From Synechocystis sp. LKSZ1 (GTDB lineage: Bacteria > Cyanobacteriota > Cyanobacteriia > Cyanobacteriales > Microcystaceae), in contig NZ_AP031572.1 in the NCBI RefSeq assembly GCF_040436315.1, forward strand, positions 868,001 to 932,000: 64,000 bases of DNA, given 5' to 3'. The notes beneath the pieces were generated by a model. It was given only the letters and a program-made list of their open reading frames with translations, did not search any database and was not told where the DNA came from. A program made the position numbers and the translations under genes. Of this stretch, positions 22,608 to 47,419 are shown piece by piece. The stretch's first letter is position 1, and each line of letters starts with the position of its first letter.

Positions 22608-22680
22608 GCCGGGATAGCTCAGTTGGTAGAGCAGAGGACTGAAAATCCTCGTGTCGGCGGTTCAAGTCCGCCTCCTGGCA
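22608..22680 (+). tRNA. tRNA-Phe(GAA), integration site of the element
   Basis: A 73-nt cloverleaf: acceptor GCCGGGA/TCCTGGC, D arm GCTC...GAGC, anticodon stem GAGGA/TCCTC around CTGAAAA (anticodon GAA), and T arm GGCGG TTCAAGT CCGCC. Discriminator A; CCA not encoded. The 3' part from base 22639 is repeated identically at 47355-47397, so a mobile element has inserted here and restored the gene. Confidence 0.96.
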
Positions 22681-22703
22681 TCTCTAAACACTAGACGTAG
22701 TAA
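22639..22703 (+). repeat. attL: left attachment repeat
   Basis: Overlaps the anticodon-to-3' half of tRNA-Phe. The first 43 bases are identical to 47355-47397. After four mismatches, a further 18 bases (AAACACTAGACGTAGTAA) are identical to 47402-47419. Thus homology extends 23 bases past the tRNA end. Confidence 0.9.
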
Positions 22704-22746
22704 CGGTTACAGCATGTCTGCCCACTGATAGGCATACATGAAAAAC

Positions 22747-22780
22747 TGACCTAGACCTAAATTGACCTAAAACTGACCTA
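22747..22780 (+). repeat. Arm-type repeats TGACCTA, left end
   Basis: Three copies of TGACCTA at 22747, 22763 and 22774; the last two sit in TGACCTAAAACTGACCTAAA, spaced 11 bp. The same double repeat occurs at the right end (47264-47281) in the same orientation. Position inside both attachment repeats fits integrase arm-binding sites. Confidence 0.6.
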
Positions 22781-22963
22781 AAATTTTCTAGGGTCATCCT
22801 CAAAATCGGCGCGTTTTTGCTGGTATTGATAGGCCGTTCCGGCCGCTGATGTCAACCCAGCGGCAAACCCCAGTCCGGCTTGGTTGCCCATTAAAATCGA
22901 AGGGACAGCAATGGCCACCGCGGCCAGCATCGCCAGTGTAGGGAAGTCGATCCACCGACTCAC
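22778..22963 (-). CDS. Small holin-like membrane protein
   Basis: 61 residues: two hydrophobic segments (about 7-25 TLAMLAAVAIAVPSILMG and 30-45 LGFAAGLTSAAGTAY), then a charged tail YQQKRADFEDDPRKF. The start overlaps the endolysin stop by four bases (ATGA), so it is translationally coupled to the lysin, the classical arrangement for a holin. No family match is certain, and an antiholin or a plain small membrane protein is possible. It is the last gene of the leftward block, close to the left attachment site. Confidence 0.55.
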   Translation of the reverse strand: MSRWIDFPTLAMLAAVAIAVPSILMGNQAGLGFAAGLTSAAGTAYQYQQKRADFEDDPRKF

Positions 22964-23691
22964 AGTCTTCTCCTCCAGGCCTTGGCCAATTCAGAAATCT
23001 CTTCTGCCTTGTCCAGTCCATTGATACAGCGTCGGGCCTGGTAAAAATCAGCCTTGTCCCCATTGATGTACTCGGTGATTTTCCGGCCAGTGAACGTACC
23101 GACCTTGAAGCCGTGGACCAAAGTAAAAAGCGCGATGTTCGGATCTAGCGCCTTGTCAGGGTTCCCCACCAAGTCAAAACCTAAAATTTCCCCGTACTTC
23201 TGGTAATTCCGCCGCCAAGTCAATTGAACGAAGCCGCGTCCGTAGTAAGGAAAATAGCGGAGATTCCGCCGGCGCCAATCCTCGCTATTCCAATAAGCCT
23301 CTTTGACTGGCTTAAAGGTTTTGTTCGTCTCATGTTCCGTCGTGGCAAGAACGTAGGCAATCTGATTAGCTGACCCAATCTTCTGTTGACGGCATTCGTA
23401 AATAATGGCCTCTACCGTACCGTCCTTGGTGGAAAAGTCATGGGTCTTTCCTGGGGTGGTCAGGGCCAAAACTTCCTCTTGAAGCAAGGCCCAAGAGTCT
23501 GGCCCAATCCATTCAGGCTCCGAGCGGTGGTTATCGGCTTTGAACTCGGCCCAGGCCGACCGGGTGCGAGGGCCAAACATCCCGTCAATGGGCCCAACCG
23601 GATAGCCCAGGGCCTTTAAGCCAGTTTGAACCTGCTTGAGGGTATCGAGGGGCAGGTCACTTAGTAGCGTCGCCGTTTGAATAGCGTTCAT
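22960..23691 (-). CDS. Endolysin: peptidoglycan-binding plus GH19/lysozyme-like domain
   Basis: 243 residues. Residues 15-72 form a peptidoglycan-binding domain (LKQVQTGLKALGYPVGPIDG...GPRTRSAWAEF). Residues about 90-225 form a lysozyme-like hydrolase resembling GH19-type phage lysins: IAYVLATTEHETNKTFKPVKE with candidate catalytic glutamates 119/121, then YYGRGFVQLTWRRNYQKYG and the ALDPNIALFTLVHG segment. It degrades the cell wall to release particles. There is no signal peptide, so it needs a holin. It overlaps the preceding membrane gene by 35 bp and the following holin-like gene by 4 bp. Confidence 0.88.
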   Translation of the reverse strand: MNAIQTATLLSDLPLDTLKQVQTGLKALGYPVGPIDGMFGPRTRSAWAEFKADNHRSEPEWIGPDSWALLQEEVLALTTPGKTHDFSTKDGTVEAIIYECRQQKIGSANQIAYVLATTEHETNKTFKPVKEAYWNSEDWRRRNLRYFPYYGRGFVQLTWRRNYQKYGEILGFDLVGNPDKALDPNIALFTLVHGFKVGTFTGRKITEYINGDKADFYQARRCINGLDKAEEISELAKAWRRRL

Positions 23692-23917
23692 TGTTGTTAT
23701 TTCTGGTCTGGGTTTGGCGGTACTCGTTGAGGTCTTCTCTCAAGGATTTGACCGTTTCTTCCAAGCGGATAAATCTCGCTTCCTGGGTAACGGCCGCATC
23801 GGTTAGGGTTTTGTTAACGCTGATTACGCCAACTCCGATGCTGAGCATCACGCCGATCATGGTGACGCTGATCCAAATGTCATTGGCCCTGGTGGGGTGA
23901 GGGGGAATCTCATTCAT
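23657..23917 (-). CDS. One-helix coiled-coil membrane protein of the lysis set
   Basis: 86 residues from MNEIPPHPTRAND at 23917 (an in-frame start lies 27 bases upstream). One membrane helix (about 16-36, IWISVTMIGVMLSIGVGVIS), then a coiled coil EARFIRLEETVKSLREDLNE and a polar Asn-rich tail. Its place directly upstream of and overlapping the endolysin suggests a holin, antiholin or spanin-like part of the lysis set. No database family is recognised. Confidence 0.55.
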   Translation of the reverse strand: MNEIPPHPTRANDIWISVTMIGVMLSIGVGVISVNKTLTDAAVTQEARFIRLEETVKSLREDLNEYRQTQTRNNNNERYSNGDATK

Positions 23918-45781: not shown

Positions 45782-46099
45782 CTCCGCAAGCTACATCTAT
45801 GGCAGATGCTACCTGCCTGGAATTTAAGATTTTTTCTATAAAATAGCATTTTTGTGCGTATACTTGTCGCGGAATCTCATCTTGCATATTACACGACGGC
45901 AAGTAAAGTGTATTTCTTATAAGATAATACGATTCTCAACAAAATCAGCAGTTGCTTACAGCATCTCAGTTGCTACTTATCAAAATAAGTGGCAATCGCC
46001 CCACAAACGATCTCTAACAGAATCTCACGCTCTCAAAATAGAAGGCTAACCAAGAGGCCAGCGGCCGTCTAACCCCCCTAACCTGTTCGCCTAGTGAGC
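45782..46099. other. Gene-free spacer between the Gp37/68 gene and integrase
   Basis: AT-rich near 45820-45960 (probably the leftward promoter for the Gp37/Gp68 gene), then GC-richer toward the integrase stop. Short frames only, without ribosome binding sites. A GTCTAAC at 46067-46073 has no partner box at attC distance. I see no gene or RNA here. Confidence 0.4.
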
Positions 46100-47221
46100 C
46101 TAACTGGGCCTGAACTCCCGGTTTCCCCCCAGGTATCGGCGGTAGATTGTCACTGACCGATTCCCGCAGTATTTAGCCACGTCGCTAGGGTTTTGCCCCG
46201 CTAGAATCTGCTCTGTGATAAAGCTGTGCCTCGTCTGCTTCGGATTCCTGTATTCAATCTCTGGCAGGCTTTCCAACACGGCCCGCCAGGCCCGATTGGC
46301 GAAATTGTGCCAGTCAATGCGGCCCCCTTCCGGGGCCAGGAAAATAATCTCTGACTGCCTGGGCAAGCCTTCTAGGACTGCCTGGGCTTTCTCGCTAAGA
46401 GTGATCGTCCGTTGCTTCTGGTTTTTTAGTCCTGCCTTCATTGTTCCCTCCGCATAGGAACGCCTAAAAGTGAGCTTCCCCCCGCGAACATCCCGCCACT
46501 CCAGCCCTAGGGCCTCCGAGGGCCGGCATCCCGTGAAAAACAGGAACGCCACCAGGGGCGCGTAGTGGCGATAATACCGATTCGCTTCAAAGGCGCTGAT
46601 GATCCGGTCACGTTCCTGCGTTGTGAAGGGGTTTATCTCCGCATCATCATCGGTCACGGTCTTAATCCGTCGCACGGCCCCAGCAAAGGGGTTTAGCTCA
46701 ATCATTCCCGACTCTACGGCCCAGTCACAGCACGCGCTCAACTGGGTCAAAATCTTTTTGGCCTGATGCGGTGGTTTATTGGCCACGATCCAATCTCTGA
46801 TGGCCACGGCCTCCGCTAATTTGGTCGTCGGCAATGACCCCAGGAAATTCATCCGCCGTCCAAAGTCAATCATTAAAGTTGTCGGGGCCAACTGGGGGCG
46901 CTTAAATTCTCGGTACTTATCCCAAAGCTCTCGGATATCTTGCTGGCTTTGCTTGGCCCTTAGTTCCTTGAGCCGCTCCTGGCTGGCATCTAGCCCGCTC
47001 TGAATCACCTTCAAATTCCCCCCATATTTCGCCAACGTCGGGTCAAAGTTCCCCGTCCTTACATCCCCCATGATGGTCAGGGCCACGGCCTGGGCCGCCT
47101 TGAAGTCGTCGGGGTCATCGTAGCGGCCGCCGGGAACCGGGTTAAACGAGTAGCGCTGGCCCTTGACCGAGAAGCGAAGCCTAAGTAGTCCATTGTTATT
47201 GATTGGAGTGATTTCGCGCAT
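46100..47221 (-). CDS. int: Tyrosine recombinase, integrase of the element
   Basis: 373 residues. N-terminal arm-binding region 1-70, core-binding domain about 95-185 (WDKYREFKRPQLAPTTLMID), catalytic domain from about 198: Arg233 in FFTGCRPSEALGLEW, the K-x-x-R/H box NPKQTRHSFITEQI (Arg331, His332), and the nucleophile Tyr360 or Tyr363 in VTIYRRYLG. It sits about 130 bp inside the right attachment repeat, with arm-type repeats in the gap. The 3' 150 bases are duplicated at 40628-40780. It catalyses insertion into and excision from tRNA-Phe. Confidence 0.92.
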   Translation of the reverse strand: MREITPINNNGLLRLRFSVKGQRYSFNPVPGGRYDDPDDFKAAQAVALTIMGDVRTGNFDPTLAKYGGNLKVIQSGLDASQERLKELRAKQSQQDIRELWDKYREFKRPQLAPTTLMIDFGRRMNFLGSLPTTKLAEAVAIRDWIVANKPPHQAKKILTQLSACCDWAVESGMIELNPFAGAVRRIKTVTDDDAEINPFTTQERDRIISAFEANRYYRHYAPLVAFLFFTGCRPSEALGLEWRDVRGGKLTFRRSYAEGTMKAGLKNQKQRTITLSEKAQAVLEGLPRQSEIIFLAPEGGRIDWHNFANRAWRAVLESLPEIEYRNPKQTRHSFITEQILAGQNPSDVAKYCGNRSVTIYRRYLGGNREFRPS

Positions 47222-47263
47222 GGTTTAGGTCGTTGTGTCCACTGCTCTATGCTAGGGGAAAAC

Positions 47264-47281
47264 TGACCTAAAACTGACCTA
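47264..47281 (+). repeat. Arm-type repeats TGACCTA, right end
   Basis: Two copies (47264 and 47275) within TGACCTAAAACTGACCTAAA, identical to the left-end double repeat at 22763-22783 over at least 7+7 motif bases and the same 11-bp spacing. They lie between the integrase start and the attR core. Confidence 0.6.
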
Positions 47282-47354
47282 AAAATAACCCTCAAATTCT
47301 GGCCTACGCGCAAAGCCTTATAAATCAAGCCTTTTATAAAAGTAGGCACGAGTC

Positions 47355-47419
47355 CTGAAAATCCTCGTGTCGGCGGTTCAAGTCCGCCTCCTGGCATACT
47401 CAAACACTAGACGTAGTAA
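47355..47419 (+). repeat. attR: right attachment repeat (partial tRNA-Phe)
   Basis: 43 bases identical to the tRNA-Phe 3' part (22639-22681), then four mismatches and 18 more identical bases. Only the anticodon-to-acceptor part is present, so this copy is not a functional tRNA. Confidence 0.9.

Follow-up and report, generated by a model that had tools for sequence, protein, structure and literature searches.

A family of temperate phage-like elements in cyanobacteria whose conserved late operon probably encodes particle proteins of their own

The window described here is a stretch of 64,000 nucleotides from the complete 3.67-Mb genome of the cyanobacterium Synechocystis sp. LKSZ1, and it carries an integrated, phage-like element of 24.7 kb bounded by two identical 43-nucleotide (nt) cores. 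An 82-nt direct repeat (88% identical; 22634-22715 and 47350-47431) encloses these cores, with which the limits proposed in an earlier sequence-only reading of the window (22639 to 47397) coincide exactly. The duplication of an attachment site at a tRNA gene, with the gene of a tyrosine integrase alongside, marks this as a temperate integrative element. A leftward late operon of 13 genes extends across 22.8-34.7 kb and reads p207, p417, p1015, p629, p115, p531, p116, p197, p78, p121, p95, a GH19 endolysin and a hydrophobic protein of 61 amino acids (aa); the first ten are the leftward genes without lysis function that the reading had counted. The genes of a VapE-type primase/helicase and an XRE-type repressor sit right of the element centre. 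Profile matches bear out the integrase, repressor, helicase and endolysin named in that reading, and its holin-like genes have weak matches. The features of the element, apart from its cargo, are as follows.

22639-22681, plus strand: 43-nt core of the left attachment site, lying in the 3' part of tRNA-Phe (22608-22680)
22743-22779, plus strand: AAACTGACCT-type repeats at the left end, two exact and one with a mismatch
22778-22963, minus strand: hydrophobic protein of 61 aa without a Pfam match, judged by eye to be a holin candidate
22960-23691, minus strand: endolysin with peptidoglycan (PG)-binding and GH19 domains, the sole late-operon protein firmly named by Pfam/PHROGs
23657-23917, minus strand: p95 (86-95 aa depending on the start codon), weak spanin/holin-like matches
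23967-24332, minus strand: p121, weakly similar by profile to the genes that occupy this position in relatives
24301-24537, minus strand: p78, conserved beside p197
24537-25130, minus strand: p197, a tandem duplication of a ~95-aa alpha/beta domain
25170-25523, minus strand: p116, a paralogue of p115
25856-27451, minus strand: p531, core protein, with a helical N-part and an alpha/beta C-part in a poor model
27451-27798, minus strand: p115
27791-29680, minus strand: p629, core protein found with p531
29689-32736, minus strand: p1015, with a variable N-part and a conserved C-terminal ~270 aa that is a separate open reading frame (ORF) in some relatives
32808-34061, minus strand: p417, fibre-like by weak matches, the most divergent gene between the two copies in this genome
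34070-34693, minus strand: p207, which in two relatives is fused with a p417-like part into a single ORF
34690-34812: intergenic region between late operon and p175, which is conserved, including its three DnaA-box-like sites, in the second element of this genome
34809-35336, plus strand: p175, membrane protein by eye, conserved in five elements
35397-35938, minus strand: p90 and p83, two paralogous small coiled-coil proteins
35938-36309, minus strand: XRE-type repressor
37411-40107, plus strand: VapE-type primase/helicase (Pfam, 1e-60)
46100-47221, minus strand: tyrosine integrase (phrog_1, 5e-39)
47260-47280, plus strand: AAACTGACCT-type repeats at the right end, two exact
47355-47397, plus strand: right attachment core, the identical 43 nt

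Many cyanobacteria hold related elements, either integrated or as circular plasmids; without cargo they are mostly 17-21 kb long, and p531 and p629 form the core pair of this family. At E 0.001, a p531 profile matched, in whole or in part, 88 of the 388 genomes sampled from the order and 53 of 149 genera, own genome included; many of the matches cover half of the protein or a fragment of it, and some are weak. We compared 23 loci, namely the window, a Xenococcus and a Tolypothrix locus, and 20 loci (from 20 of the 88 genomes) picked among strong, mostly full-length p531 matches, so that this sample of 20 is biased to intact elements. Every one of the 23 holds a p629 homologue, on the same strand as p531 in 21 and within 300 nt of it in 14; in two loci the distance is ~15 kb, and p629 may there belong to an adjacent tandem element, while some loci have a fragment of it. 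The p197 gene is present in 15 of the 23; in a draw of 386 genomes from the phylum it has matches in 17, of which 4 lie outside the order. Relatives of p1015 occur in 12 of 291 genomes of the order, and a profile of its C-part matches 13 of 388 genomes of the order and 4 of 386 in the phylum draw (own genome counted; the genome draws for the p1015 and C-part counts overlap). The sequence-only reading had held that a complete absence of relatives, combined with a lack of excision, would speak against it; the search it proposed for the same gene set in other cyanobacteria found many.

We note that p531 is often split into two ORFs, one covering about residues 1-300 and the other 300-530 and in some cases lying on different strands, which may be separable domains or rearranged remnants. 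Equal-scoring p531 copies lie 20,327 bp (G661:C186), 18,006 bp (G653:C81) and 21,490 bp (G087:C35) apart, a spacing of ~18.0-21.5 kb that suggests tandem elements of that size or the assembly of circles. In 11 of the 23 loci a small gene of unknown function (64-89 aa; family N5, L091-L110) sits among the late genes, usually on the other strand.

Attachment repeats lie in tRNA genes in three elements: that of the window (tRNA-Phe, 43 nt), a second one in the same genome (tRNA-Met, 78 nt, 95% identical) and a 20.66-kb element of a congener (tRNA-Phe, 75 nt, 100%). A Cyanosarcina relative perhaps sits at tRNA-Asp, with a weak 18-nt repeat and uncertain ends. Other relatives are circular episomes with phage-type genes, that is, phage-plasmids, represented by three plasmid records (pGM3709_05 of Geminocystis, 32.5 kb, and, at 20.8 kb each, unnamed14 of Tolypothrix and pMIC7113.08 of Allocoleopsis) and one contig, scaffold_93 of Xenococcus PCC 7305, whose ends overlap by 95 nt to give a circle of 17.1 kb. 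Two sub-lineages have p207, p417 and p1015, one together with p531, p197 and p78 and the other with small beta-rich-looking proteins. The Tolypothrix and Allocoleopsis plasmids carry p629 and p531, and p207 and p1015 were not found in them. In one genome (G013, L023-L025) the late operons of both sub-lineages stand side by side; the endolysin of the first (L023, 18946-19626) looks by eye like a T4-type lysozyme with a PG-binding domain, not GH19, which suggests a swap of the lysis gene.

The second element of the LKSZ1 genome (18.95 kb, between the tRNA-Met repeats) has the same late operon, with a different integrase and a DnaB-like replication protein. About 4.6 kb (24955-29581) are identical between the two elements, p115, p116 and p531 being identical in their DNA, and the two copies have recently recombined. 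The endolysin, p197, p78, p95 and p207 differ between the copies with nonsynonymous divergence (dN) well below synonymous divergence (dS), a sign of purifying selection (dN 0.13 and dS 0.96 for the GH19 endolysin, 0.02 and 0.26 for p197), whereas p417 retains 46% nucleotide identity, with dS of both p1015 and p417 near saturation. The core is thus exchanged and conserved while the fibre-like gene diverges, as in phages, and purifying selection between the copies, together with homologues in other genomes, indicates that the genes of the element are more than chance.

The sequence-only reading could recognise no hallmark genes of tailed phages in the element, and that absence held up: in scans against Pfam and PHROGs, of 20 window proteins each, none was named as a terminase, portal, major capsid, tail-tube or sheath protein. 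The family-library searches were made by HMMER, and the lack of homology rests on these and on two structure models. Six family profiles compared with the sequences of solved structures gave no credible relative. Of the structure and fold checks that the reading had proposed, that of p197 yielded a model with a predicted local distance difference test (pLDDT) score of 86, a tandem duplicate with a strand/helix pattern for which searches of PDB and BFVD gave no match below E 0.8 and 0.08, respectively, and that of p531 yielded a poor model (pLDDT 52.5). A match of the late genes to terminase, portal or known capsid, which the reading had taken as the sign of an ordinary divergent prophage, did not appear in these profile and structure searches. 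The weak matches that did appear were those of p417 to a "hydrolase" (6e-5) and a tail fibre (0.02), both short, and of p95 to a tape measure profile (0.05); outside the late operon, p90 matched the profiles of a phage "hemolysin" (7e-8), a "minor head protein" (1e-5) and a tail needle (0.015).

The relatives gave a similar picture. We scanned 114 neighbouring proteins of at least 175 aa from the 20 relatives against PHROGs, chosen from 151 (the other 37, largely from the outer ends, were set aside manually) after matches to p531, p629, p197, p78 and the integrase had been removed. The 25 listed of the 123 matched families are primases, helicases, polymerases, endolysins, an integrase, an ABC transporter, a transposase and unknowns, with no terminase, portal, capsid or tail family among them; because these are 25 of 123, a terminase or capsid could occur in a single relative locus. 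For the Xenococcus circle, PHROGs scans of 20 of the 22 ORFs (all except a 93-aa ORF and a fragment at the contig end) firmly named two helicase-type proteins and an endolysin and, at the sensitivity of HMMER, named no terminase. No match to an FtsK/A32-like packaging ATPase family was obtained for the window proteins or the Xenococcus circle. A strict Walker A motif is absent from the Xenococcus ORFs and from p1015, p629, p531, p207 and p197, a weak negative because the same pattern misses the VapE helicase. Ten proteins each were also scanned from the Tolypothrix and Geminocystis plasmids, and two of their matches are weighed below.

The sequence-only reading had offered a new type of temperate virus, a satellite or a particle-forming island. 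The analysis agrees with it in part and establishes a coherent mobile family that shares a late operon whose proteins belong to unknown families. The evidence leans to structural genes of the element's own, in view of the conservation of the late and lysis genes and of an own genome without a match to portal, HK97 capsid or Terminase_6N. In our preferred interpretation, these are temperate phage-like elements of a so far unrecognised family, whose particles probably consist of new proteins of their own. More tentatively, and with some doubt, we propose that they may constitute a major unrecognised lineage of temperate cyanobacterial viruses, with p629, p531 and p197 as new virion proteins without homology to known capsids or packaging machines, present as provirus, plasmid or remnant in about one-fifth of the sampled genomes of the order.

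From the layout of the genes we infer repression, induction, a particle, DNA packaging, lysis and the roles of the individual late proteins. The tyrosine integrase would insert the element into a tRNA gene, relatives living also as circles, and the XRE repressor would keep it silent, while its own primase/helicase would replicate it. Induction would lead to expression of the single leftward late operon and so to a particle of proteins unrelated to known virus families, with p629 and p531 as its constant core and p531 contributing a long helical, perhaps membrane-active part. The candidate for the main particle or surface protein is p197; p207, p417 and p1015 may be exchangeable host-binding parts, and the GH19 endolysin would release the particle together with the holin/spanin-like proteins.

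Several points weigh against particles of the element's own making. Double-stranded DNA (dsDNA) viruses usually have a packaging ATPase, and none could be named here. A virus might be expected in IMG/VR, where scans with short peptide patterns, of limited sensitivity, found no relative, and tblastn with queries of the p1015, p531 and p629 types against 50,697 phage records found none either. The Geminocystis plasmid and the window element, at 32.5 and 24.7 kb, fall outside the narrow range of 17-21 kb. Since the models are those of p197 and, poorly, p531, another late protein (p629, p1015, p207 or p121) may conceal a known capsid fold. The "minor head protein" match of p90 also counts here, as does that of a Tolypothrix AAA ATPase to a terminase profile (0.002, among many P-loop families); we read the former as probable coiled-coil similarity and the latter as probable P-loop similarity.

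Among the alternatives, the one that survives best, though we consider it unlikely, is a phage satellite (P4 and PICI being known examples), which would encode host-binding and lysis parts and perhaps a remodelled coat and have its DNA packaged by the terminase and capsid of a helper. The size of 17-21 kb suits this explanation, as does the failure to name a terminase, portal or major capsid in the element or the scanned proteins of relatives, and an integrase with VapE or primase is typical of satellites. The large conserved late operon with lysis genes, however, exceeds the usual satellite content. The own genome, moreover, has no match for Phage_portal (PF04860), Phage_capsid (PF05065) or Terminase_6N (PF03237), and across 13 bearer genomes these matched 0, 1 (HK97-type, G268, 9e-39) and 1 (G290), compared with 4, 4 and 6 of 14 control genomes, although an outside helper is possible. 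This is an imperfect test with three families of many, and it may miss cyanobacterial prophages, because the Synechococcus elongatus control matched none of them. The terminase profile phrog_2 matched all 13 bearers and is not specific, as 11 of the 14 controls match too; its strong matches were in G290 and G083 (5e-23, terminase-like with two internal stops) alone, so that 3 of the 13 bearers (G268, G290 and G083) hold tailed-phage genes. The terminase of G290 scored 1e-25 and 3e-7 in the two terminase searches. In G268 the capsid gene (G268:C333:20418-21281), on a contig other than the element's, has a terminase-like match ~8 kb away (29560-30138); this locus is possibly an ordinary tailed prophage and a potential helper.

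A very divergent tailed phage, with terminase, portal and capsid below profile detection (p629 or p531 as the portal, for example, and p1015 as a head or tail part), is a rather improbable explanation. The late operon with fibre-like and lysis genes resembles that of tailed phages, the library searches were made by HMMER alone, and besides the "minor head protein" match of p90, the p417-like protein of the Geminocystis plasmid matches the tail profile phrog_4577 (3e-7). Terminase and portal, however, are usually among the most detectable phage genes, and neither these nor capsid or tail families were among those listed for the 114 neighbouring proteins, while p197 matched no head or tail structure. 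It is very unlikely that the operon makes a lysis-released protein complex (bacteriocin-like or an injection device) or belongs to a vesicle-borne plasmid spreading without a capsid, since integrase, repressor and replication genes travel with it and the fibre-like p417 is the most divergent gene between copies, as expected of a horizontally infecting agent.

Two sets of short repeats and a cargo region complete the element. Within the whole window and allowing at most one mismatch, AAACTGACCT has 12 matches, compared with a mean of 4.2 in shuffled sequences, none of 100 of which reached 12, and the position of these repeats inside both ends makes them likely integrase arm sites. DnaA-box-like repeats, which the sequence-only reading had listed, are present as TTTTCCACA at 34736 and 34758 with ATTTCCACA in between, in a stretch conserved in the second element, but the count of TTTTCCACA by itself is no more than chance (2 in the window; as many in 22 of 100 shuffles). 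The layout given in that reading has to be amended by an inserted cargo of about 40.9-46.0 kb, with the following features.

40617-40780, minus strand: fragment of an integrase 3' end, 164 nt, 88% identical to 46101-46264
41090-45781: cargo, consisting of a PIN_12 protein, a 335-aa unknown, and a TcmP and radical-SAM-like pair

The TcmP and radical-SAM-like pair corresponds to the PADLOC candidate defence PDC-M30A/B. The cargo genes were not seen among the ORFs of the second element, and two pieces flanking part of the cargo adjoin there, which identifies at least 41-43.6 kb as an insertion. The integrase fragment is probably the scar of an earlier, replaced integrase. A family-specific recombinase combined with cargo is characteristic of tycheposons, islands of Prochlorococcus.

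The elements resemble temperate phages and phage-plasmids of the Caudoviricetes in their tRNA integration, XRE repressor, VapE/primase and single late operon ending in lysis genes, and in the occurrence of integrated and circular forms in one family. Unlike these, they have no gene named as terminase, portal, HK97 capsid or tail tube (the large terminase being sought at HMMER sensitivity), and their core proteins have no relative in Pfam, PHROGs or PDB sequences. A small genome, a prophage life style and the lack of tail-tube genes are shared with tailless temperate dsDNA phages of the double jelly-roll kinds (PMC11630473, PMC5894146, PMC9966536). In contrast to such phages (Varidnaviria), no double jelly-roll protein or packaging ATPase was found, with models of p197 and, poorly, p531 to judge from, and the strand/strand/helix order predicted for p197 appears to us unlike a jelly roll. 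The integrase with primase/helicase, the small size and the candidate defence cargo resemble those of phage satellites such as PICMI (PMC10803314); unlike satellites, the element has a large late operon of its own with lysis genes, in a genome without portal, capsid or Terminase_6N matches. By description, small circles with phage-like genes also include satellite phage-plasmids of glacial viromes, said by the authors to be without phage structural genes (PMC4490671), and, in a cyanobacterium, the Microcystis phage-like plasmid NIES-298 P1, which is reported to share genes with Microcystis phages (PMC12510456).

Virus finders depend on terminase, portal and capsid genes, and a family without them stays invisible. 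For this family, the two-gene core of p531 and p629 can serve directly as a marker, and LKSZ1, whose complete genome harbours two distinct copies that have recently recombined, is a strain suited to testing. To our knowledge, few temperate viruses of photosynthetic bacteria have been described. If the elements make particles, they would represent a new virion architecture and packaging mode in these bacteria.

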